Assembly (NCBI GenBank): GCA_913030895.1
Contig: CAJWGK010000009.1
Location: 1-48,036 of the forward strand
DNA from: an uncultured Flavobacteriaceae bacterium
GTDB lineage: Bacteria; Bacteroidota; Bacteroidia; Flavobacteriales; Flavobacteriaceae
Length of the DNA stretch: 48,036 bases
Reading direction: 5' to 3'
Below, piece by piece: positions 13,547-25,063 of the stretch. The position numbers were made by a program, and so were the translations under genes. The notes beneath the pieces are model-generated. The model was not told the origin of the DNA and did not search any database. It worked only from the letters and a program-made list of their open reading frames with translations. Every line of letters begins with the position of its first letter. Position 1 is the first letter of the stretch.

Positions 13547-13933
13547 ATGAATTTCTCTCTAAGAACCAGCGTATTTACTATACTACTCGTGCTATTAGCG
13601 AGTAGCTTAGCACGGGCTCAATCAGAAAAAGTAATGATTAAACAAGATTCACTTGTCACAAAACTGATGACCGTAAAAAAACAGATTGATAGCACTGCAT
13701 ACGCTGCAAGATTTTTTACCATTCAGCTTTATTATGGGGACAATCAAAAAGCAAAAAGTATTTTAGAAAAATTCAAAGAAGATTTCCCTGATTGGGAGGT
13801 TAATTTGAGTTTTGAAACCCCTAATTATAAAGTTCAAGTGGGCAAGTACAAAGACTACTATTTCGGTTTAAATAAATTAAAAGAAATAAAAAGGGCTTAT
13901 CCAGCAGCTTTTTTGTTGGAAATCAAGAATTAG
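13547..13933 (+). CDS. Small secreted SPOR-domain protein
   Basis: The protein has 128 residues. The N-terminus is a signal peptide ending near ARAQ (residues 1-25), followed by a short linker and a SPOR-like domain (about residues 52-128) with the pattern [38 protein letters not shown] domains bind septal peptidoglycan lacking stem peptides, so a periplasmic cell-wall role is likely. The open frame begins at a TTG at 13487, but the ATG at 13547 directly precedes a good signal peptide. The gene stands alone on the plus strand, and its stop overlaps the end of infB tail to tail by four bases. Confidence 0.8.
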
Positions 13934-16608
13934 AGTTTTTTCTTGATGGCTACCTCTTGGAAACATTCTAATATATCTCCTTCATTGATGTCGTTGTAGT
14001 TTTTGATTTGAAGTCCGCAATCGTAGCCTTTCGAAACTTCTTTAACATCATCTTTGAATCGCTTCAATGAAGCTAAATTTCCTGAGAAAATCACTACACC
14101 CTCACGTATCAATCGGATTCCAGTATTTCTATAAATTTTTCCAGTGGTGACCATACACCCTGCGATGGTTCCAACTTTGGATATTTTATAAGTTTCACGT
14201 ATTTCAGCAGTCCCAGTTATTTCTTCTTTCATTTCAGGGGACAACATGCCTTCCATTGCATCTTTTACATCATTAATAGCGTCATAAATAATGGAGTAAG
14301 AACGGATATCAATTTCTTCTTTTTCAGCAATTGCTCGGGCATTACCCATAGGTCTTACGTTAAATCCAATCACAATTGCATCAGATGCAGAGGCCAATAG
14401 CACATCAGATTCTGTAATAGCTCCAACGCCTTTGTGAATGATATTCACCTGAATTTCTTCCGTAGAGAGTTTTTGAAGTGAGTCAGTCAAAGCCTCAACG
14501 GAACCATCAACATCCCCTTTGAGAATCATATTCAACTCTTTGAATTCGCCCAAAGCAATCCTCCTTCCGATTTCATCAAGCGTAATATGTCTTTGGGTTC
14601 TAACGTTTTGTTCCCTGAGCAATTGAGTCCTTTTAGCAGCAATTTGTTTGGCCTCCTTTTCGTCTTGAAGAACATTAAAATTATCTCCAGCCTGGGGCGC
14701 ACCATCCAATCCTAAGATAGAAACAGGTGTTGAAGGTGGTACTTTTTCTAGGGGGTTTCCCCTTTCGTCAAACATCGCTTTTACCTTTCCACTATGCTTT
14801 CCTGCCAATATATAATCTCCAATCTCTAAAGATCCCGTTTGGACTAAAATGGTAGAAACATAGCCGCGTCCCTTATCCAAGAAAGCTTCCACAACTGTTC
14901 CTTTAGATTTACGATTAGGGTTAGCTTTCAATTCTAATAACTCTGCCTCTAAAAGTACTTTTTCCAAAAGCTCATTTACTCCAGTTCCTTTAAGTGCTGA
15001 AATATCTTGGGATTGTATTTTTCCACCCCATTCTTCAACCATAAGATTCATTCCTGCAAGCGCCTCTTTAATCTTATCTGGGTTTGAATTGGGTTTATCA
15101 ATTTTATTTATAGCAAAAATCAATGGCACACCTGCAGCCTGAGCGTGACTTATTGCTTCTTTAGTCTGTGGCATGATATCATCATCGGCAGCAATAACAA
15201 TTATGGCGATATCAGTAACTTGAGCTCCCCTAGCTCTCATTGCAGTAAATGCTTCGTGACCAGGAGTATCTAAGAAAGTGATTTTTTGGTTGTCTTTAAG
15301 TGTAACTGAATAGGCACCAATGTGCTGTGTAATTCCACCGGACTCACCAGCAATGACATTTTCTTCTCTAATGTAATCAAGTAAAGAAGTTTTACCATGA
15401 TCTACATGTCCCATTACCGTCACAATTGGAGCACGAGATTCTAGTTCTTCATCTTCATCAACAGTATCCTCAATACTTTCTTCAAGTTCAGTTTTGACAA
15501 ATTCTACTTGATAACCAAATTCATCCGCAACAATACTCAAGGTCTCTGCATCCAATCGCTGATTCATGGTTACCATAATTCCCAATGACATACAAGCGGA
15601 TATAATTTCGGTAGAGCTAATTTCCATTAGAGTAGCAATCTCACCTACAGTAATAAATTCAGTCACCTTTAATATTTTACTGCTGGCTTCAATTTCTGCC
15701 AACTCATCTTCCGATTTTTGACGGTGCTGATCTCTTTTGTCTCTTCTGTATTTTGCTCCTTTGGACTTATTGGTTTTCCCTTGAAGTTTTTCTAGGGTCT
15801 CACGGATTTGCTTTTGCACCTCCTCATCAGTAGGCTCAGCTTTGACAGTTTGCTCCTGCCTAGGTTTCTGATTTGAAGATCCTCTCCTTTGGTTATTATT
15901 ATTGTTGTTGTTTGATCTGTTGTTAGCTCCAGGCTTGGGAGTAGTCTCCTTACTTATCCTTTTTCTCTTTCTTTTTCGAGCTTCTTCAACCGTCTTTTCT
16001 TTTTTCTTAAACTCATCAAGGTCTATCGTTTGACCTGTGATTTTTGGACCTGAAAGAGTTTTATATTTTGTCTTTATTGACCCATCTGTTTGTTTTTCTA
16101 ACTCTTCAGTGGGAGCAGGTTGTTTAATTACTTCTTTCTTCTCCTGTTTGGGAGGAGCAACAACTTTTTCTTTTTCTACCGCTTGATCTTCTTTCTTAAC
16201 CTCCACTGGTTTTTCTTCTGCAGGGGGGGCGGGCGGTGATTTTGGTTTGGGTGGGTCAAGGTCTATCTTCCCAAGGGTAACAGGCTTAATAATATTTGCT
16301 TTAGCCTTGATGATCTCCTGACGCTTTTGTTGCTGTTCAAGTCGCTCTTGTTCTTTTTGTTCTTGTAGAACTCTTAAAGTCTCTTTTTCCTTTTTCTTTT
16401 CCTCACTTATTTCTTGAGAAGCATCTTTTTTGGATTTATCTGTTTCAAACTCATCCAAGAGTAATTGATAAATATCCCTGGAGATCTTTGTGGTGGGGCG
16501 CGCTTCAATTTCAACATTCTTGTGTGACAGAAATTCGACCGCACGATCCAAAGAAATATTCAATTCTCTGAGTGCAACATTTAATCTTTTTGTAGATGTT
16601 TCTGCCAT
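13930..16608 (-). CDS. infB: Translation initiation factor IF-2
   Basis: IF-2 is the GTPase that brings initiator tRNA to the 30S subunit and promotes subunit joining. The protein has 892 residues. It starts with a short helical IF2N-type domain (about residues 1-60). A long low-complexity charged linker follows, rich in Lys, Glu, Pro and Gln with an Asn-rich stretch. The GTPase core comes next near residue 400, with [16 protein letters not shown] and NKID, and then domains II-IV. The ATG at 16608 ([10 protein letters not shown]) is preferred over an upstream non-ATG opening. It is the third gene of rimP-nusA-infB, 42 bases after nusA, and its 3' end overlaps the convergent SPOR gene by four bases. 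Confidence 0.97.
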
Positions 16609-16650
16609 ATAGATTTTATTCCGTGTCAAAAGTAGGAAAAATCCCCACGT

Positions 16651-17883
16651 TTACTCTTCAAATTCTGCTTTTAAAATTCGGATTACCTCACTAACGGTCT
16701 CTTCCTCCAGGTCGGTTCGCTTTATTAAATCTACTTTTTCAAGTTCGAGAATACTCTTAGCAGTATCCAGACCAACTTTTTTGAATTCATCGATCACCCA
16801 AGAGTCGATTTCATCACTGAATTCAGCCAATTCAACGTCTTCCTCCACACCCTCTCGGTAAACATCAATTTCGTATCCAGTCAATTTACCTGCCAGTCTT
16901 ATATTGTGTCCACCCCTACCAATAGCTTTGGAAACTTCGTCAGGGTTGAGGAATACTTGGACTCTTTTGGTGTCTTCATCGATTTTAAGCGAATTAATTT
17001 TTGCTGGGCTTAAAGCTCGAGTAATAAATAATTGCAAGTTGTTAGTATAATTGATAACGTCTATATTTTCATTACCCAACTCGCGAACAATTCCGTGAAT
17101 TCGAGATCCTTTCATCCCAACACAGGCACCAACTGGATCGATTCGGTCATCGTAAGAATCCACAGCTACTTTTGCCTTTTCTCCCGGAATTCTGACTGCT
17201 TTTTTAATGGTAATCAATCCATCAAATACTTCAGGGATTTCTTGTTCAAATAATTTTTCAAGAAAAATAGGTGAAGTTCTGGAAAGAATAATTCTCGGTT
17301 TATTTCCTCTCAACTCAACGATTTCAATCACCCCTCTTACGTTGTCCCCTTTTCTAAAAAAATCGTTGGGAATCTGTCGATCCTTAGGTAGGATAATCTC
17401 ATTACCATCATCATCCAAAAGAATCACTTCCCTATTTCTGATATGATGCACCTCAGCAGTAAAAAGCTCTCCCGTACGATCCTTAAATTGATTAAAAGTA
17501 TTGGTACTATCGTGTTCAAATATTTTTGAAATAAGATTTTGACGTAAGGTCTGTATGGATCTTCTTCCTAAGTCAACAAGTTTGACTTCTTCAGAAACAT
17601 CCTCACCAACTTCAAAGTCTGGCTCAATTTTTTGCGCATCTTTCAATTCAATTTCTTGATTGGGATCCTCAACCTCACCATCTTTAACAACAATTCTATT
17701 TCTCCAAATCTCCAAATCTCCTTTATCAGGATTAATGATAATATCAAAATTATCGTCCGATCCAAACTTTCGCTTTAGTGTATTTCTGAAGACCTCCTCC
17801 AAAATTACCATGAGGGTTACACGATCAATTAATTTCTCGTCTTTAAACTCTGAAAAAGATTCAATTAATGCTAGATTTTCCAT
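16651..17883 (-). CDS. nusA: Transcription termination/antitermination factor NusA
   Basis: NusA binds RNA polymerase and modulates pausing, termination and antitermination. At 410 residues it has the expected N-terminal polymerase-binding domain (about 1-125), an S1 domain (about 130-200) and two KH domains. The KH signatures are GACVGMKGSRIHGIVRELGNE and VSKAIGRGGHNIRLAGKLTG. A short helical C-terminal segment follows. Long tandem acidic repeats as in the Escherichia coli protein are absent. It starts five bases after the rimP stop. The ATG start is unambiguous. Confidence 0.96.
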   Translation of the reverse strand: MENLALIESFSEFKDEKLIDRVTLMVILEEVFRNTLKRKFGSDDNFDIIINPDKGDLEIWRNRIVVKDGEVEDPNQEIELKDAQKIEPDFEVGEDVSEEVKLVDLGRRSIQTLRQNLISKIFEHDSTNTFNQFKDRTGELFTAEVHHIRNREVILLDDDGNEIILPKDRQIPNDFFRKGDNVRGVIEIVELRGNKPRIILSRTSPIFLEKLFEQEIPEVFDGLITIKKAVRIPGEKAKVAVDSYDDRIDPVGACVGMKGSRIHGIVRELGNENIDVINYTNNLQLFITRALSPAKINSLKIDEDTKRVQVFLNPDEVSKAIGRGGHNIRLAGKLTGYEIDVYREGVEEDVELAEFSDEIDSWVIDEFKKVGLDTAKSILELEKVDLIKRTDLEEETVSEVIRILKAEFEE

Positions 17884-17887
17884 TAGA

Positions 17888-18355
17888 TTAAAATTTTATC
17901 ATCACCTTACTTTGGTTAATTTCATCAAAGGCGATGGTTTTATTTTTAGTTACTGTTATTTTACCTTTACCAACTGCTTTGGGTTCTCTTTGTTTCCATT
18001 GCAGTTCGATTTGCTGATCTTCTACTTTGGTCAATTCACCCGAGACTAATGCTCCATCAGTTAGAACAACCTCGAGTTTTCTGCCAATGTTCTTATAATA
18101 TTGCCTTGGAAACTTTAACGCGCTTCCAACTCCTGCTGAGGCCACCTCCAAACTGAAGTCTTCGACTTCACGGTCAAGCGATCCCTCAATCTCACGACTG
18201 ATATTTATACAGTCTTTTACATTTACATCTTTGTCGCCATCCAGTATAATCTTAATTGAATTGTCGGCTGAAACCTTAAAATCAACCAAAAAAATACCTG
18301 GAAAGTTTTCTAATGCAACTGATAACAAAGACGCAACTTTTTCACTAAAATTCAT
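17888..18355 (-). CDS. rimP: Ribosome maturation factor RimP
   Basis: RimP assists late maturation of the 30S ribosomal subunit. The 155-residue protein has the usual two-domain form. The N-terminal alpha/beta domain contains DCINISREIEGSLDRE and the SAGVGSALKFPRQYYKN region, where the family motif is normally SPGxxRPL; here it reads SAGVGSAL. A C-terminal Sm-like domain follows. It heads the conserved rimP-nusA-infB operon. A terminator-like hairpin ends three bases before its ATG, which suggests control at the start of the operon. Confidence 0.93.
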   Translation of the reverse strand: MNFSEKVASLLSVALENFPGIFLVDFKVSADNSIKIILDGDKDVNVKDCINISREIEGSLDREVEDFSLEVASAGVGSALKFPRQYYKNIGRKLEVVLTDGALVSGELTKVEDQQIELQWKQREPKAVGKGKITVTKNKTIAFDEINQSKVMIKF

Positions 18356-18358
18356 ATC

Positions 18359-18388
18359 AAAAAAAAGAGGGACCTAATAGTCGCCTCT
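18359..18388 (-). promoter_or_regulatory. Terminator-like hairpin in the rimP leader (candidate attenuator)
   Basis: On the minus strand the sequence reads AGAGG-C-GAC-TATTAG-GTC-CCTCT followed by a run of T. This gives an 8-bp stem with one bulged C, a six-base loop and a U-tract of eight. The tract ends three bases before the rimP ATG. No minus-strand gene lies upstream within 450 bases, so this is not the end of a neighbouring operon. It sits between the candidate rimP -7 box and the coding region and could attenuate transcription, block initiation, or both. Confidence 0.55.
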
Positions 18389-18411
18389 GATTTATTTTTC
18401 ATAATGCTCTG

Positions 18412-18419
18412 CAAATATA
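18412..18419 (-). promoter_or_regulatory. Candidate -7 box (TATATTTG) for rimP-nusA-infB
   Basis: The minus strand reads TATATTTG, a full TAnnTTTG match, 57 bases before the rimP ATG. This would give a leader of about 50 bases that contains the hairpin at 18359-18388. No -33 TTG was found at standard spacing. Confidence 0.4.
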
Positions 18420-18664
18420 GCATTTTTAAGGAAAATTTACATTGAAAATTTCCCCATTTGAAAGAATGCCTTTGGGATAACATTAAAAATTTCTTTTCAA
18501 ATGATGTCTTAGTTTAAAAACCTGGTCTTCAAGGAAGAATAGTCTCGGTCAGAAATAAAAAAAATAAAGATAAAATTTAAGGTTTTAAACCAGAGATTCA
18601 ATCGAAAAACACGTTCCTTCAATCAATAAATTAAAGCAAAAAACATCCTCAAAAATTAGCACTA

Positions 18665-18680
18665 CCTATTATTTAATAGG
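18665..18680. promoter_or_regulatory. Palindrome CCTATTA-TT-TAATAGG
   Basis: Seven-base arms surround a two-base centre. The outer half-sites CCTAT/ATAGG are the same as in the Rrf2/cys palindrome at 21863-21879, but the spacing is one base shorter. It lies about 95 bases upstream of the vWA -7 box. It could be a second operator for the same regulator or chance in AT-rich DNA. Confidence 0.25.
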
Positions 18681-18773
18681 ATTCATTGTTACGAGAAAAC
18701 TTTCATGTTGGAAAAAGATATCAACCCGCTATAAATTTCTAGAATAAATCACTTTTCTTTAGTTCAATTTTAA

Positions 18774-18788
18774 ACTACCTTTGGTAGT
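18774..18788 (+). promoter_or_regulatory. vWA-AAA+ promoter -7 box within a palindrome
   Basis: TACCTTTG at 18776-18783 matches TAnnTTTG and lies 28 bases before the vWA ATG. It is embedded in the perfect inverted repeat ACTACC-TTT-GGTAGT. A regulator bound to the repeat would cover the -7 element directly. No clear -33 TTG is present upstream. Confidence 0.4.
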
Positions 18789-18811
18789 AATTGCTATGTT
18801 AATGAATTAAT

Positions 18812-19936
18812 ATGAAGTTTTCTGATTTCAGAACAGGCCTTTTATTCAAAAAACCTGAGTCAAAGGATCAATCTCCTTTTGAAAAGCTTTTTGAGATTTT
18901 CAAAGAACTAATCACGCATACCTCTGGAGACTTTGATGAAGCCATTGATTGGCTAAGAGAGTTGGACGAGGAATATCAACTTACCGATGAAAATTACACC
19001 ATTGATGATTTTATAGAAGATTTACTCGATAAGGGGTACATCAAAGCGGAAATCAAACCTGATGGAAGCGAACGTTCAATGGGAATAACTGCAAAGACCG
19101 AAAAAATTTTGAGGGAATATGCTTTAAAACAAATTTTTGGCAAGTTGAAGCGATCAGGTATGGGAAATCACAGCACCAAGCATCAAGGTATTGGAGACGA
19201 GATTTCTGGTGAATTAACAAACTTTCAGTTCGGAGATCCTATTGAAAATATCGTCCTCACAGAAAGCATCAAAAACGCTCAGATAAATTCTGGAATTCAC
19301 GATTTCCATCTCACTGAAGACGATCTGGTCGTGGAAAAAAACCACCATAAATCTCAAATGAGTACGGTCTTAATGATCGACATAAGTCACAGTATGATTC
19401 TATATGGGGAAGATCGCATTACTCCAGCAAAAAAAGTAGCAATGGCTTTGGCTGAATTTATTACCACCAGATATCCCAAAGACACGCTGGATGTTTTGGT
19501 TTTCGGAAATGATGCCCGACCCATTTCCATAAAAGAATTACCTTACTTACAAGTAGGTCCATATCACACCAATACTGTTGCTGGACTAGAGTTGGCAATG
19601 GATATGCTCAGAAGAAAAAGGAATACCAACAAACAAATCTTTATGATCACTGATGGTAAGCCAAGTTGTTTGAAGATGCCTGATGGAAGCTATTACAAAA
19701 ACAGTGTAGGACTCGATCGTCAAATTGTTGAAAAATGTTACCTGATGGCTCGTCAAGCAAAAAAGTTGAAAATCCCCATTACTACCTTTATGATCGCCTC
19801 AGACCCCTACCTAAAGCAATTTGTTCAGGAATTCACCAAAGTGAACCAAGGGAAAGCCTTTTTCACTGGATTAAATAATCTCGGTGAGATGATTTTTGAA
19901 GATTATGAAAAAAATAGAAAAAAACGATTTGGATAG
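18812..19936 (+). CDS. von Willebrand factor A domain protein, partner of an AAA+ ATPase
   Basis: The specific function is unknown. The 374-residue protein has a helical N-terminal part (about 1-175) rich in acidic residues. A vWA domain follows with a complete-looking MIDAS metal site: DISHS (Asp190, Ser192, Ser194), a Thr in HTNT (residues 252-255) and ITDG (Asp281). No signal peptide or membrane segment is seen, so it is probably cytoplasmic. The stop codon is two bases before the start of an AAA+ ATPase gene. vWA plus MoxR/chelatase-like ATPase pairs typically act as a remodelling or metal-insertion machine on a third protein, which is not evident here. Confidence 0.8.
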   Translation: MKFSDFRTGLLFKKPESKDQSPFEKLFEIFKELITHTSGDFDEAIDWLRELDEEYQLTDENYTIDDFIEDLLDKGYIKAEIKPDGSERSMGITAKTEKILREYALKQIFGKLKRSGMGNHSTKHQGIGDEISGELTNFQFGDPIENIVLTESIKNAQINSGIHDFHLTEDDLVVEKNHHKSQMSTVLMIDISHSMILYGEDRITPAKKVAMALAEFITTRYPKDTLDVLVFGNDARPISIKELPYLQVGPYHTNTVAGLELAMDMLRRKRNTNKQIFMITDGKPSCLKMPDGSYYKNSVGLDRQIVEKCYLMARQAKKLKIPITTFMIASDPYLKQFVQEFTKVNQGKAFFTGLNNLGEMIFEDYEKNRKKRFG

Positions 19937-19938
19937 AA

Positions 19939-21402
19939 ATGGAGCAACCTAAAAATATTACCCTAAAAGAACTAAAAAAAACATCATATCAACCCAAAAC
20001 CATTCAACAAGAACTGGCAGATAATTTAAGAGCTAGAATTAGTAAAGGTGAAACTTCTTTTGATGGACTAATCGGTTATGACAACACCGTTATTCCAGAT
20101 TTGGAAAGAGCAATTCTTTCTGGTCATAATATCAACCTATTAGGTTTAAGAGGTCAAGCTAAAACTCGTTTAGCTCGAAAAATGACAGGATTATTAGACG
20201 AGTGGATTCCTGTTATTTCCGGTTCTGAAATCAACGATGATCCGCTCAAGCCCATTTCCAGTTTTGCTAAAGAATTGATTGCTGAAAAAGGAGATGAGAC
20301 CCCTATTACTTGGATGCATCGAGAAGAACGTTTTTTTGAAAAATTAGCTACGCCAGATGTAACGGTTGCAGATTTAATTGGGGATGTAGACCCTATAAAA
20401 GCTGCAACACTCAAATTGACTTACGCTGATGAAAAGGTACTTCACTTTGGAATGATCCCAAGAGCTCATCGTTGCATTTTTGTACTCAATGAATTACCTG
20501 ATTTACAAGCACGGATTCAAGTTGCGTTATTCTCTATTTTACAGGAAAAGGAGATTCAAGTTAGGGGATTCAAATTGAGACTTCCCCTTGAAATCCAGTT
20601 TGTATTTACGGCAAACCCTGAGGATTACACCAATCGAGGTAATATCGTTACCCCCCTTAAAGATAGAATCGGGTCTCAAATTTTGACACACTATCCACAT
20701 AATGTAGAAATCGCTAAAAGAATTACTGAACAGGAAGCGCAGATTAGCCCAGAAAAAGCAACAAACATCCATATACCGGAACTTGCAAAAGAGCTCTTGG
20801 AACAAATTGGTTTTGAGGCGAGGAAAAGTGAATATGTTGACGCCAAAAGTGGCGTTAGTGCTCGGATGAGTATTACAGCTTATGAAAATTTATTTAGCAG
20901 CGCAGAAAGACGCTTACTAATCACTCAAGATGAAAATACTTGTATCAGAATGACAGATTTTCTCGGAGTTATTCCTGCAATTAATGGTAAAATCGAACTG
21001 GTTTACGAAGGTGAGCAAGAGGGAGCCAATGAGGTTTCATTTCACTTAATTTCTATGTCGATCAAAAGTTTATTTCCTAAATATTTTCCGAAAATTGAAA
21101 AGTTAGAAAAACCCAACGAACCCGGACCATATGACGAAATATTAGGATGGTTCTTTAAGGACAATGAACTTTTTTTGGAGGATGACCTAAGTGAAAAAAA
21201 CTATAAAAAAGCCTTAGATGACGTTCACGGACTAAGTAAAATCGCTAAAAAACATTTGGCTGATTTGGATAAAAAAGATCAATATTTTCTTATGGAATTT
21301 CTACTTTGGGGATTAGAATCTCATCAAAAACTCAACAAGCTAAGAAGGCTGGAGGGTATTCAATTTAAAGATTCACTAGGAAGTTTTATCAATAGGCTTT
21401 AA
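19939..21402 (+). CDS. AAA+ ATPase of the MoxR / magnesium chelatase type
   Basis: The 487-residue protein has an AAA+ core with Walker A GLRGQAKTR (residues 69-77) and a Walker B-like strand CIFVLNELPDL, where Asn184-Glu185 replaces the usual Asp-Glu. The later core includes ANPEDYTNRG and TPLKDRIG, the sensor and arginine-finger region. The C-terminal 150 residues are helical and highly charged. It resembles proteins often labelled magnesium chelatase, but no chlorophyll or cobalamin chelatase H subunit is nearby, so that name should not be taken literally. It is co-transcribed with the vWA gene. The stop overlaps the convergent Rrf2 gene by four bases. Confidence 0.82.
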   Translation: MEQPKNITLKELKKTSYQPKTIQQELADNLRARISKGETSFDGLIGYDNTVIPDLERAILSGHNINLLGLRGQAKTRLARKMTGLLDEWIPVISGSEINDDPLKPISSFAKELIAEKGDETPITWMHREERFFEKLATPDVTVADLIGDVDPIKAATLKLTYADEKVLHFGMIPRAHRCIFVLNELPDLQARIQVALFSILQEKEIQVRGFKLRLPLEIQFVFTANPEDYTNRGNIVTPLKDRIGSQILTHYPHNVEIAKRITEQEAQISPEKATNIHIPELAKELLEQIGFEARKSEYVDAKSGVSARMSITAYENLFSSAERRLLITQDENTCIRMTDFLGVIPAINGKIELVYEGEQEGANEVSFHLISMSIKSLFPKYFPKIEKLEKPNEPGPYDEILGWFFKDNELFLEDDLSEKNYKKALDDVHGLSKIAKKHLADLDKKDQYFLMEFLLWGLESHQKLNKLRRLEGIQFKDSLGSFINRL

Positions 21403-21815
21403 ACCTTATTTCTCATAGAATCAATCGAGGTCTTGGTCAACACTTTTAGGGTCTTATCCCTTACTTTCTCAAATACATTTTTGATTTGGCAAATGTCCTC
21501 GTTGCATTCTTCGCAAGCTGCGTAATAATTAAGTGAAACACATGGCAACATGGCTATTGGTCCATCTACTTGACGTATTAACTCCGCGAGATAAATTTCT
21601 CTGGGATCTCTGATAAGTCGATAGCCTCCTGTCTTTCCTCTATGACTCTGTAGTAGTTTAAAATTCCTGAGTTCTCTTAATATGGTTTCTAAAAATTTCT
21701 TCGGAATATTCTCCTTTTCGGCAATCTCAGATGAAAAGATAGACCGATCTTCCGATTGATGATCAGCTAGATATAACAAAGCCTTTATGGCGTATTTACA
21801 TTTTTTTGAAATCAT
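21399..21815 (-). CDS. Rrf2-family transcriptional regulator with a cysteine cluster
   Basis: The 138-residue protein has a winged helix-turn-helix of the Rrf2 family: KYAIKALLYLA, IPKKFLETILRELRNFKLLQSHRG and the wing GGYRL. The C-terminal part has Cys92, Cys101, Cys104 and Cys109. IscR uses a similarly placed three-cysteine cluster to bind an Fe-S centre, so redox or Fe-S sensing is plausible. The frame opens at a TTG at 21830, but the ATG at 21815 fits the family start. It is divergent from the sulfate assimilation operon and shares a 17-bp palindrome with it, which makes it the likely local regulator. A CymR-like, cysteine-responsive role is an alternative. Confidence 0.87.
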   Translation of the reverse strand: MISKKCKYAIKALLYLADHQSEDRSIFSSEIAEKENIPKKFLETILRELRNFKLLQSHRGKTGGYRLIRDPREIYLAELIRQVDGPIAMLPCVSLNYYAACEECNEDICQIKNVFEKVRDKTLKVLTKTSIDSMRNKV

Positions 21816-21827
21816 AATAATACGCGA

Positions 21828-21835
21828 CAAAATTA
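21828..21835 (-). promoter_or_regulatory. Candidate -7 box (TAATTTTG) for the Rrf2 gene
   Basis: The minus strand reads TAATTTTG, a TAnnTTTG match ending 12 bases before the ATG at 21815. This leaves a very short leader. The palindrome at 21863-21879 lies just beyond the expected -33 region, so self-regulation is possible. Confidence 0.4.
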
Positions 21836-21862
21836 GAAAAATAATTTTTAAACCCCCTAAAT

Positions 21863-21879
21863 CCTATAAACTTTATAGG
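21863..21879. promoter_or_regulatory. Candidate Rrf2 operator, 17-bp perfect palindrome
   Basis: CCTATAAA-C-TTTATAGG has eight-base perfect arms and one central base. It lies between the divergent Rrf2 gene and the cys operon, five bases upstream of the cys -33 element. Rrf2 proteins bind as dimers to palindromes of about this size, and the CCTAT/ATAGG half-sites resemble those reported for CymR-type regulators of sulfur genes. Assignment to the adjacent regulator is inferred from position. Confidence 0.55.
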
Positions 21880-21884
21880 GATTA

Positions 21885-21916
21885 TTTGTTTAATATTTAA
21901 TTACGACTTAAATTTG
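21885..21916 (+). promoter_or_regulatory. Promoter of the sulfate assimilation operon
   Basis: TTTG at 21885-21888, a 20-base spacer and TAAATTTG at 21909-21916 match the Bacteroidota housekeeping promoter (TTTG/TTG, 17-23 bases, TAnnTTTG). The start codon of the first gene is at 21942, giving a leader of about 20 bases. This is the most complete promoter match in the window. Confidence 0.65.
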
Positions 21917-21941
21917 GCAAATTATTAATAGAATCTTAATC

Positions 21942-22199
21942 ATGTTTTTAGACCTTCATTTGTCAAGAAAAAATAAAGAAAAAAATACTAATGCTGCTAA
22001 AGAATCTATCTCTAGAAGTGCTTTAAAAGCAATAAGCTGGAGATTGGTAGGGACATTAGATACAATTTTAATCGCCTACTTTATCACTGGAACAATTTCT
22101 CAAGCACTTTCAATCGGATTTATTGAGTGGGGAACAAAAATTGTTCTTTATTTTTTTCACGAGCGACTTTGGAACAAACTACGTTGGGGTAAAAAATAA
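21942..22199 (+). CDS. DUF2061 membrane protein
   Basis: This is an 85-residue membrane protein of unknown function. A basic, hydrophilic N-terminus is followed by the DUF2061 pattern (RSALKAISWRLVGTLDT, ITGTISQALSIGFIEW, KIVLYFFHERLWNKLRWG) with two hydrophobic helices. Members of this family often sit in sulfate assimilation operons, sometimes fused or next to CysC/CysN, but their role is not established. Here it is the first gene of the operon, six bases before cysH, which suggests a function tied to sulfate activation or transport. No sulfate permease is visible in the window. Confidence 0.8.
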   Translation: MFLDLHLSRKNKEKNTNAAKESISRSALKAISWRLVGTLDTILIAYFITGTISQALSIGFIEWGTKIVLYFFHERLWNKLRWGKK

Positions 22200-22205
22200 A
22201 TCAAA

Positions 22206-22916
22206 ATGGAAAATCACCGAATAGAAAAACTTAATGAAGTTTTCAGAAACTTCAATTTGGAAGAGTCTTTTGAAAACTTAATAAATCTTGGATTTAAAAA
22301 TATGGCTTTTTCCACCTCATTCGGACAGGAAGATCAAGTCATTACAGATGTCATTTTTAAAAATGATTATCCAATTAAAGTATTTACTCTAGATACAGGT
22401 CGATTATTTGAAGAGACTTATAAAGTAATTGACCAAACACAAAAAAAATATAATAAAGATGTCATTACTTACTTTCCCAACACGGAATCTGTAGAAAAAC
22501 TTGTGGAGCAAAAGGGCCATTACAGTTTTTACGAGAGTGTTGAGAACAGAAAAGAATGCTGCTCAATTAGAAAAGTAAATCCCCTGCAACGTGCGCTAAA
22601 GGGAGTTGATCTCTGGATTACAGGCCTACGAGCCTCCCAAAGCAATTCAAGAAGTGAGATAAATCTATTTGGTTATGACAATGCCTTTGGTTTACCTAAG
22701 TTTAATCCTTTGGCTCATTGGGAGTTGTCAACCGTTGTAAAATATTTAGAAATTAATCAGGTGCCCCAAAATTCTTTGCACCACAAAGGTTTTGTCAGCA
22801 TCGGCTGTGCACCCTGTACTCGCCCCATTAAAGAAGGAGATGACATCAGAGCTGGTCGCTGGTGGTGGGAAGAAAGTAAAAAAGAGTGTGGCCTACACCT
22901 AAATCAGAAATCGTAA
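22206..22916 (+). CDS. cysH: Assimilatory adenylylsulfate (APS) reductase
   Basis: The enzyme reduces activated sulfate to sulfite with electrons from thioredoxin. The 236-residue protein has the PP-loop-like sulfonucleotide reductase fold (FSTSFGQEDQV, VFTLDTGRLFEETY). It carries the paired cysteines Cys118-Cys119 (KECCSIRK) and Cys201/Cys204 (GCAPC) that bind a [4Fe-4S] cluster in APS-specific enzymes. The catalytic cysteine is in the C-terminal KECGLH motif. PAPS reductases of the Escherichia coli type lack the cluster cysteines, so APS is the expected substrate. This agrees with the absence of an APS kinase gene in the operon. Confidence 0.93.
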   Translation: MENHRIEKLNEVFRNFNLEESFENLINLGFKNMAFSTSFGQEDQVITDVIFKNDYPIKVFTLDTGRLFEETYKVIDQTQKKYNKDVITYFPNTESVEKLVEQKGHYSFYESVENRKECCSIRKVNPLQRALKGVDLWITGLRASQSNSRSEINLFGYDNAFGLPKFNPLAHWELSTVVKYLEINQVPQNSLHHKGFVSIGCAPCTRPIKEGDDIRAGRWWWEESKKECGLHLNQKS

Positions 22917-22920
22917 TTTA

Positions 22921-23808
22921 ATGGATACATTATCCCATTTAGAAGAAGAAGCCATCTATATTATCAGAGAGGTAGCTGGTCAATTTGAGAAACCTGTCTT
23001 GCTTTTTTCGGGAGGCAAGGACTCTATTGTACTTTTACACCTTTGCCAAAAAGCTTTTTTACCCGCTAAAATCCCTTTCCCATTATTGCATATTGACACT
23101 GGACATAATTTCCCAGAAACGATTGCATTAAGAGATGAACTGGTAAAAAAATATTCGGTAAAGCTCCACGTAGGGAATGTCCAAGATAGTATTGACCAAG
23201 GAAAAGTTGTCGAAGAAAAAGGCAAATATGCAAGTCGAAATATTTTGCAAACCACAACCCTTCTAGAAACAATTGAAGAATTAAAGTTTGACGCTTGTAT
23301 GGGCGGTGCCAGAAGAGATGAAGAAAAAGCAAGAGCGAAAGAGCGTATTTTCTCTGTCCGTGATGATTTCGGTCAATGGAATGAAAAACTGCAGCGTCCC
23401 GAATTATTTGATATCCTTAATGGACAAATCCATACTGGCGAAAATATTAGAGTATTTCCGATTAGTAATTGGACTGAATTGGATGTCTGGGAATACATTA
23501 GACATGAACAATTGGAGATCCCATCGATTTATTTTTCTCACCGAAGAAAAGTATTCCTTCGTGACGGTCAATTAATGCCTTGCTCTGATTTTATAATGCA
23601 TGACACTGATGCTGCCTTTGAGGAAAGCGTTAGATTCCGAACTGTTGGCGATATGAGTTGTACTGCTGCAGTCCCCTCCGAAGCTGTTGATTTGGACACA
23701 GTAATAGACGAAATTAGAGGTTCTTCTATTTCAGAAAGAGGTGCAAGAATGGACGATAAACGCTCTGAGGGCGCAATGGAGGAGCGAAAAAAAGTAGGTT
23801 ATTTCTAA
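22921..23808 (+). CDS. cysD: Sulfate adenylyltransferase subunit 2
   Basis: CysD is the catalytic ATP-pyrophosphatase subunit of the heterodimeric ATP sulfurylase that makes APS from sulfate and ATP. The PP-loop SGGKDS is at residues 30-35. The family features RRDEEKARAKER, FPISNWTELDVWEYI and GDMSCTAAV follow. The 295-residue length is typical. It lies four bases after cysH and 16 bases before cysN, whose GTPase drives the reaction. Confidence 0.95.
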   Translation: MDTLSHLEEEAIYIIREVAGQFEKPVLLFSGGKDSIVLLHLCQKAFLPAKIPFPLLHIDTGHNFPETIALRDELVKKYSVKLHVGNVQDSIDQGKVVEEKGKYASRNILQTTTLLETIEELKFDACMGGARRDEEKARAKERIFSVRDDFGQWNEKLQRPELFDILNGQIHTGENIRVFPISNWTELDVWEYIRHEQLEIPSIYFSHRRKVFLRDGQLMPCSDFIMHDTDAAFEESVRFRTVGDMSCTAAVPSEAVDLDTVIDEIRGSSISERGARMDDKRSEGAMEERKKVGYF

Positions 23809-23824
23809 AACTATATCCCAGAGA

Positions 23825-25063
23825 ATGGAAATCTTAAGAATTACAACTGCAGGAAGTGTGGATGATGGTAAAAGTACCCTCATCGGCAGACTATTATACG
23901 AAACCCAATCATTAAAGATAGATCAGGTTGAACATATTGAAGTAAAAAGCGAATCTTTAGGTTATGACTATTTGGATTTTTCTCTAGCCACAGATGGTTT
24001 GCTGACCGAAAGAGAGCAGGGAATTACCATTGATGTATCTCATCTTTACTTTAGTACACCCAAAAGGAGATTTATCATTGCAGATGCACCGGGGCATGTG
24101 GAGTATACCAGGAATATGGTAACAGGTGCCTCAAATGTCAATGTTGCGATTATTCTTCTTGACGCTCGAAAAGGCGTCATGGAACAAACCAAAAGACACC
24201 TTTATATTACCCAACTTTTGGGAATTAAGAATTTAATCTTTACCATCAACAAAATGGATTTGATTGACTATAGCGAAAGTCAATTTGAAGCCATTAAATC
24301 TGACATTTTACAATTGGTCAATCAATACGATTGGAATCCAACGCTAAATTTCATTCCAGTTTCTGCCTTGAAAGGTGATAACGTCATCGGTAAAAGTGAA
24401 AATATGTCTTGGTATGATGGTGTTGATTTATTGACCCTGATTGAATCACTCGAAATAAAACTCAATAACGGTTTCGATAGTTATGTGCAGGTTCAAAATG
24501 TTATTCGACCAAAGACAGAAGACCACCATGACTATCGTGGATTTGCGGGTAAGGTGAAAAGCGGTTTTTTTACAGAAGGAGATGAAATAGAAGTCTTTCC
24601 ATCTGGAATTAAGACAAGAATCAAATCCATAGAAAAATATGGTGATCAAAAAAAGAAGGTAGCTGCTGGGGAAAATGCCACCATTCTTTTAGAAGATGAA
24701 ATTGATGCTTCTAGAGGAAATGCTTTTGTAAAGACGAATCACAATTTAAAAACCGACAAACAAATAAAAGCTAAAGTATGTTGGATGCAACCTGAACATC
24801 TGAACCCTTACGGTAAATATTGGATACAGCACGGAATCCATAAAAGTTTGGCAAAAATTAGAGGAATTGATTCTAAAATGGATTGGGAGGCGTGGAGCAC
24901 TATCCCATCAGACACCCTCAAGATGAATGACATCGGAGAAGTTAACCTTCAACTGGCTCAGCCGTTGATGTATGCTCCTTACAAGACAAACAAAAATCTT
25001 GGGGCTTTTATATTAATTGATGCAAATACTAACAATACTGCCGGAGTAGGCTTTATTCAATAA
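23825..25063 (+). CDS. cysN: Sulfate adenylyltransferase subunit 1 (GTPase)
   Basis: CysN couples GTP hydrolysis to APS synthesis by CysD. The GTPase motifs are GSVDDGKS (residues 10-17), DAPGH and NKMD, followed by two EF-Tu-like beta-barrel domains. At 412 residues it has no C-terminal APS kinase domain, unlike CysNC fusions. This agrees with an APS-reductase route that does not need PAPS. It ends three bases before the sulfite reductase gene. Confidence 0.95.
   Translation: MEILRITTAGSVDDGKSTLIGRLLYETQSLKIDQVEHIEVKSESLGYDYLDFSLATDGLLTEREQGITIDVSHLYFSTPKRRFIIADAPGHVEYTRNMVTGASNVNVAIILLDARKGVMEQTKRHLYITQLLGIKNLIFTINKMDLIDYSESQFEAIKSDILQLVNQYDWNPTLNFIPVSALKGDNVIGKSENMSWYDGVDLLTLIESLEIKLNNGFDSYVQVQNVIRPKTEDHHDYRGFAGKVKSGFFTEGDEIEVFPSGIKTRIKSIEKYGDQKKKVAAGENATILLEDEIDASRGNAFVKTNHNLKTDKQIKAKVCWMQPEHLNPYGKYWIQHGIHKSLAKIRGIDSKMDWEAWSTIPSDTLKMNDIGEVNLQLAQPLMYAPYKTNKNLGAFILIDANTNNTAGVGFIQ

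Follow-up and report, generated by a model that had tools for sequence, protein, structure and literature searches.

A conserved terminator-like hairpin in the rimP-nusA-infB leader of Flavobacteriaceae: a probable suboptimal attenuator with NusA as its most likely regulator

The rimP-leader has been called the most ubiquitous transcription attenuator (Naville and Gautheret 2010), and NusA was named as its best candidate effector (PMC2965389). In Bacillus subtilis, NusA is autoregulated through leader termination that it stimulates itself, and it weighs most at weak hairpins or interrupted U-tracts (PMC12288461). Transcription of rimP-nusA-infB in Streptococcus agalactiae terminates 31 nt after its start, and a NusA feedback has been proposed (PMC4448216); transcripts of the Escherichia coli operon increase when termination by NusA is lowered (PMC6511841). 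For rimP of Flavobacterium psychrophilum, a structured 5′ element without an Rfam hit was described that also occurs in other Flavobacteriaceae genera (PMC9723704). We analyzed a stretch of 48,036 nt from an uncultured Flavobacteriaceae bacterium (GCA_913030895.1, contig CAJWGK010000009.1; the whole stretch is called the window here), in which a hairpin with a U-tract lies directly before the rimP-nusA-infB operon.

This hairpin is the Bacteroidota counterpart of the rimP-leader attenuator described in PMC2965389. The window has a hairpin and a T-stretch in the 5′ untranslated region of rimP-nusA-infB, the combination by which a rimP-leader is recognized, and in both cases the hairpin is short and stands directly before the operon. 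Neither contains a larger conserved element such as an aptamer, a T-box or an antiterminator; here, about 20 variable nt precede the stem. A conserved stem sequence, which the authors of PMC2965389 did not find in other terminators, is a further shared trait. A G-rich 5′ arm and a C-rich 3′ arm mark the rimP-leader and also the family form studied here, but the motif differs, being GGGc/gCCC in the former and GAGGGGAC/GTCCCCTC in the latter; placed side by side, GGGc(...)gCCC stands against GGGGAC/GTCCCC in the family and GAGGcGAC/GTCCCTC in the window, where a bulged C breaks the G-run. The gap between U-tract and ATG is three bases in the window (11 from the stem), at or near the low end of the 4–130 nt of the rimP-leader.

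The element in PMC9723704 belongs to the same gene and family; it is covered by one sentence, which in the accessible text of that article comes without a sequence, a terminator label or a link to the rimP-leader. The strings 'bacteroid' and 'flavobact' are absent from the main text of PMC2965389, species tables aside, and a search of the open-licence literature, supplements not included, returned no paper that joins the rimP-leader and the flavobacterial element or that calls the Bacteroidota element a terminator. The leaders of B. subtilis nusA and of the S. agalactiae operon likewise place an intrinsic terminator before a NusA-encoding operon (PMC12288461, PMC4448216); termination was observed in both and NusA dependence was shown in B. 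subtilis, whereas for the window both are predictions. The E. coli metY-rimP-nusA-infB leader (PMC6511841; RF01770) shares with our reading of the window the terminators upstream of rimP and the NusA-linked control, but unlike the window it has a tRNA gene and two terminators upstream of rimP.

Our analysis suggests that the hairpin is probably a conserved leader terminator of rimP-nusA-infB, that it is suboptimal, and that NusA is its most likely regulator. On the minus strand, the 5′ arm of the stem reads A18388 G A G G18384, bulged C18383 and G18382 A C18380, the loop TATTAG spans 18379-18374, and the 3′ arm is G18373 T C C C T C T18366. The eighth pair (A18388-U18366) takes the first U of the U8 tract, so the counts of stem and tract overlap by one base. 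The U8 tract is followed by GAT and then by the rimP ATG at 18355-18353. The initial annotation had described a bulged stem, a six-base loop and a run of eight U ending three bases before the ATG, and these were reproduced base for base; the -7 box, which it had placed about 25 bases upstream of the stem, is present with a gap of 23 bases. The box TAnnTTTG occupies -12 to -5 in F. psychrophilum, so +1 is expected near 18407; the stem would then begin around +20, and the U-tract would end at +49. With the U-tract following directly, the hairpin has the structure that defines an intrinsic terminator.

To judge conservation, rimP was recovered from 19 of 22 genomes of the same genus, most of which are incomplete, and from 140 of 149 genomes of the family. 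Two genomes occur in both sets, and the total came to 157 Flavobacteriaceae leaders. All 19 genus leaders carry the hairpin and a T7–T8 run that stops about three bases short of the start codon. The stem and its tail hardly change across them, and the roughly 20 bases between promoter and stem vary. The last 120 nt of the leaders were scanned, with 106 shuffles as control. The median score was 33.5 for leaders and 19.6 for shuffles (95th percentile 24.6, maximum 28.0), and a hairpin with a T-rich tail scored above the shuffle maximum in 148 of 157 leaders. For the counts below, hairpins were called in 152 leaders at a cut-off of 23, which is below the 95th percentile of the shuffles; L023, L076, L070 and L151 are counted among them although their scores lie within the shuffle range. 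Of the remaining five leaders, three (L028, L053 and L069) carry this hairpin 130–136 nt upstream, as found by pattern (the score of 26.6 for L053 belongs to another hairpin), and L153 and L156 have degenerate forms, as judged by eye. In L028, L053, L069, L025 and L135, the hairpin lies 58–136 nt before the RimP match, with extra sequence intervening.

The arms GAGGGGAC/GTCCCCTC are identical in 108 of the 152 called hairpins. The loop measures 3–7 nt and is mostly 5 nt long (93 of the 112 leaders with this arm type), and the tail after the common stem is TTTTTATA. At least five T occur within the eight bases after the stem in all 152 called hairpins, a count that is partly built in, since the scan rewards T; in 112 leaders chosen by stem sequence alone, the first four tail positions are 99–100% T. 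We also observed in these 112 leaders that the TTTTTATA tail is kept beyond the U-run, with A at position 6 in 88%, T at position 7 in 100% and A at position 8 in 96%. Upstream of the hairpin, 149 of the 152 leaders from family and genus have a TAnnTTTG box. Its distance to the stem is 20–31 nt in 146 of the 149, with exceptions at 2, 11 and 18 nt, and this position of the promoter box places the hairpin inside the leader.

A highly conserved palindrome at a near-constant distance from the -7 box could also be a DNA operator, an inverted repeat bound by a dimeric repressor just downstream of the promoter. We consider this very improbable, because the spacing of the arms varies from 3 to 7 and the T-run is regular on one side, with at least five A before the stem in 49 of 152 hairpins, compared with the at least five T that follow it in every one. 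Moreover, the genus of the window breaks the palindrome by a bulge yet lengthens the T-run.

The position of the stem bears on a different idea, which the initial annotation also raised: whether or not termination occurs, the folded RNA might keep ribosomes from the rimP start. The distance from stem end to start codon is 10–11 nt in the genus and has a median of 15 nt in the 132 other family leaders (5th–95th percentile 12–23), so a folded hairpin could fall within the ribosome footprint in most of them. Such translation control is nevertheless unlikely, since the T-rich tail is never lost in the 152 called hairpins, though blocking needs none, and the hairpin is more than 50 nt upstream in some genomes. 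A version in which a ribosome block is confined to the clade of the window was dropped, as the stem ends 12–20 nt from the start in 115 of the 132 other leaders.

Covariation was evaluated with two alignments. Alignment A1 holds 132 of 144 distinct hairpins, with bulged rows kept ungapped and counted as unpaired at pair 15-28; 94.8% of its cells pair, and six of eight pairs show double compensatory changes (12 cells), which none of 500 shuffles reached. Alignment A3 is a selection of 42 rows without a bulge; all of its cells pair, three pairs show double changes (five cells; 0/500 shuffles), and the count of further pair types was not unusual (101/500 shuffles). The relatedness of the rows inflates these counts. 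Replacements of entire stems nevertheless point the same way: the whole stem is swapped for GAGGCACGC/GCGTGCCTC in L191, L192 and L262, perfectly paired and with the same TTTTTATA tail, and for GAGAGGAC/GTCCTCTC in Winogradskyella (L275). The initial annotation, which proposed attenuation, had pointed to compensatory stem changes and a kept U-tract in relatives as its check, and both were found, the former in six of eight pairs of A1 and the latter in every called hairpin. Together with the promoter box upstream, they make attenuation of rimP-nusA-infB well supported as a predicted design. That the design is an attenuator is argued by the combination itself: the hairpin precedes the first gene, has a U-tract on one side, and follows the promoter closely at a nearly constant distance.

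In the mechanism that we favor, the hairpin and U-tract would act as an intrinsic terminator that RNA polymerase reaches about 45–50 nt after transcription start. A part of the polymerases would stop there and release a short leader RNA, and the remainder would read through into the operon. The terminator appears to be suboptimal, through its bulged stem in the window and, in most relatives, through a U5-AUA tract that is interrupted after five U, and the efficiency of a suboptimal terminator can depend on an elongation factor. More NusA, the product of the second gene, would then cause more termination and less operon RNA; the most likely benefit of attenuation is that the cell can hold down its supply of these transcription and translation factors. 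We infer termination in vivo at the hairpin from its sequence features and control by NusA from the analogous operons. The roughly 20 variable bases in front of the stem could hardly accommodate an aptamer or antiterminator, so that the regulator is likely to be a protein, which would act on either the elongation complex or the hairpin. NusA appears to be the best candidate because nusA is in the operon and because of the precedent in B. subtilis, S. agalactiae and E. coli.

The same terminator could have another reader, such as RimP or IF2 on the GAGGGGAC arm, a ribosomal protein, or NusG, which we regard as possible but not probable. Conservation of the arms (identical in 108 of 152) goes far beyond the needs of a generic terminator, NusG of B. 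subtilis also works at suboptimal terminators with U-tract interruptions (PMC8060035), and feedback by RimP was raised as a possibility in PMC2965389. The precedent favors NusA: its role was shown in B. subtilis and proposed in S. agalactiae, and in E. coli it is linked to the transcript levels of the operon.

The clade of the window carries a variant of the putative NusA-responsive terminator. The median hairpin energy is -7.5 kcal/mol with eight leading T in the genus; the 133 leaders outside it have medians of -15.2 kcal/mol and five T. A weak stem and a long U-tract occur together in 35 of the 114 RimP rows for which a leader is available, a weak stem by itself in one, and neither trait in 78. 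A RimP tree of these 114 rows, made with FastTree, requires one change for the long U-tract and two for the weak stem. The tree was built without L237, L242, L243, L263, L266, L272, L282, L296 and L297, whose frames are probably cut at the wrong length, and without L218–L221, which repeat genus rows. The 35 variant rows include Candidatus Arcticimaribacter (L249, L260) and the metagenome-assembled genomes MS024-2A (L238) and UBA980 (L231). The variant, a weak or bulged stem with a longer U-tract that almost reaches the start codon, apparently goes back to one evolutionary change. The tree itself is silent on which state is older; the weak form is taken as derived because the strong form recurs in other families. 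A general trade-off between stem strength and U-tract length was considered and rejected: the Spearman coefficient was 0.34 over 152 leaders, but this is in effect one event on the tree.

The search was extended beyond the family, taking the class as Bacteroidia and the phylum as Bacteroidota, as inferred from named relatives. For leaders from the class and phylum, the scan took in as much as 200 nt and allowed longer stems, a setting that the family shuffle control does not cover. In a class sample of one leader from each of 45 other families, 42 have a T-tailed hairpin, 40 of them found by script (score at least 27) and two by eye (L335 and L342, with loops of 9 and 11). In other classes of the phylum, 13 of 15 leaders score at least 30; the arms differ (for example AAAGTGGGG/CCCCACTTT in L351), and homology is therefore less certain there.

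Two search models were also used. Model R1 was trained on the family and the genus of the window, with the window's own row among the training rows. It matches 186 of 296 order genomes at E ≤0.1, with one match at this level in the genome of the window. All 30 fetched order-level loci, some of which are training rows, precede a RimP-like frame. In the set of 29 loci that supplied L191, L192, L197 and L198, L210 was left out and the genome of L201 is represented by L300. Many order families outside f1 match weakly, and f4 mostly at E >0.01. Model R2 was built without the genus of the window and reaches E ≤0.001 in 34 of 296 class genomes. In the 16 of these 34 with a known RimP position, the match lies directly before rimP in all 16; two of the 16 (G145 and G147) supplied training rows, and nine are outside the family.

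Several results weigh against a conserved terminator under NusA control. The genome of the window is not among the 34 that R2 detects; in the window, the rimP site is the top match of R2, the bulged C being aligned to a gap, but it reaches no better than E 0.28 (16.2 bits). Of the 19 genus leaders, R2 recovers 15, at E 0.012–0.85. Because these E values are weak, the form in the window has to be regarded as distant from the family form. A convincing hairpin was not seen in three of the 45 class leaders (L330, L337 and L339), and two leaders from f4, a family of the same order, have a different, weaker hairpin whose score of 23.5 is within the shuffle range (L197, L198). The near-invariance of the arms exceeds what a terminator needs. 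The Rfam model RF01770, with a cut-off of 47 bits, gave 19 genome matches at E ≤10, none of them at the rimP leader and none above the cut-off. Finally, we found no test of NusA dependence in Bacteroidota in the literature searched.

In the genus, an upstream open reading frame (uORF) may add to the leader. An ATG uORF starting at about +6 stays open through the stem in 17 of 19 genus leaders (the window and L002–L012, L014 and L016–L019), against a mean of 2.7 when the spacer is shuffled. Twelve end at a TGA one base before the rimP ATG, and four, including that of the window, overlap the ATG (ATGA); in L019, the uORF continues in the rimP frame, which would lengthen RimP at its N-terminus. 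The uORF may help ribosomes to reach a start codon beside the hairpin, for which the evidence is thin. As a general component of the leader the uORF was rejected, since outside the genus such frames are not in excess (22 of 129 family leaders, against 33.4 shuffled). One could imagine a composite switch in the genus of the window, in which translation of the uORF opens the terminator and feeds ribosomes to rimP; 16 of the 17 uORFs stop beside or overlapping the rimP ATG. If true, the supply of IF2, NusA and RimP would be tied to translation initiation capacity. Such a switch is quite unlikely, as the genus rows are closely related while the frame and peptide of the uORF differ, the L019 frame runs into RimP, the excess stops at the genus, and the end position of the uORF largely follows from the conserved T8-GA sequence.

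Taken as a lone sequence, the hairpin of the window is hardly more than chance would give and is not strong evidence, because similar-scoring sites occur elsewhere in the window; it is conservation that makes the case. The 31-nt hairpin folds at -11.1 kcal/mol (z -3.87), with none of 200 shuffles as good, and a 77-nt fold is not unusual (z -1.16, 25/200 shuffles as good). A built-in consensus terminator scan of 17500-19500 reported no terminator, the stem being interrupted by the bulge. When both strands were scanned in tiles with bulges allowed, four window sites scored at least 31.5, among them the rimP hairpin at 32.6. T-tailed hairpins were also seen at 2147-2124 on the minus strand, scoring 34.2 and thus above the rimP hairpin, and at 22128-22150 on the plus strand, scoring 31.8. 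The four similar scores are what could be said for a chance hairpin, or for the leftover terminator of an upstream gene. We give this almost no credence, as the hairpin is conserved across family and class, the upstream neighbor is divergent (it starts at 18812 on the plus strand), and the promoter box lies between any upstream gene and the hairpin. The statements of the initial annotation that no minus-strand gene precedes the hairpin and that it is not a leftover operon terminator are borne out by this arrangement, and a search for tRNA genes found none in the window.

Features of the analyzed site and operon are collected in Table 1.

Table 1. Position of the leader features and operon genes in the window
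Feature	Coordinates	Strand	Remarks
-7 box TATATTTG	18412..18419	minus	Bacteroidota sigma-A type, consensus TAnnTTTG (PMC9723704)
Predicted transcription start (+1)	18407, ± about 2 bases	minus	inferred from box position -12 to -5
Possible leader uORF MKNKSEATIRSLFFLI	18352..18402	minus	TGA 18354-18352 overlaps the rimP ATG; function doubtful
Terminator-like hairpin AGAGG(c)GAC - TATTAG - GTCCCTCT	18366..18388	minus	8 pairs, bulged C at 18383
U8 tract	18359..18366	minus	an attenuated RNA is expected to end here, near +44 to +49
rimP, first gene of the operon	17888..18355	minus	Pfam RimP_N PF02576
nusA	16651..17883	minus	NusA N-terminal domain and KH domains
infB (translation initiation factor IF-2)	13930..16629	minus	listed frame; the true start may be a few codons inward; domain scan used 13930-16617

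Rfam searches gave five matches on the window region (E ≤5), all below their gathering scores, and tRNAs alone at the gathering score in 18 relatives; 14 short loci (E ≤10) gave tRNAs and sub-threshold matches, the best being sraA with 35.4 bits against 56. A tRNA-Gln (ttg) was seen upstream of rimP in five of six scanned loci, five having been preselected by an Rfam tRNA match (L102:48-122, L157:33-106, L024:272-345, L034:380-451 and L041:390-463). It stands directly before the leader in L102 and L157, which resembles metY before rimP in E. coli. Elsewhere in the window, at 21399-25063, an Rrf2-type regulator is divergent from a gene run resembling sulfate assimilation genes. From their translations, we take members of this run to be of the cysH, cysD and cysN types.

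In summary, the rimP-leader, which in 2010 was exemplified by Firmicutes and Gammaproteobacteria (PMC2965389), is extended here to Flavobacteriaceae and most sampled families of the class, and the extension carries a sharp sequence signature, covariation and a near-constant promoter distance. A third major group of bacteria thereby becomes available for testing the feedback of NusA on its own operon. With about 50 nt and no sensor domain, the small leader would be a clean template on which to examine if NusA by itself is able to determine how efficiently transcription terminates. For the same question, the clade of the window offers a natural variant with a weak stem and a longer U-tract.
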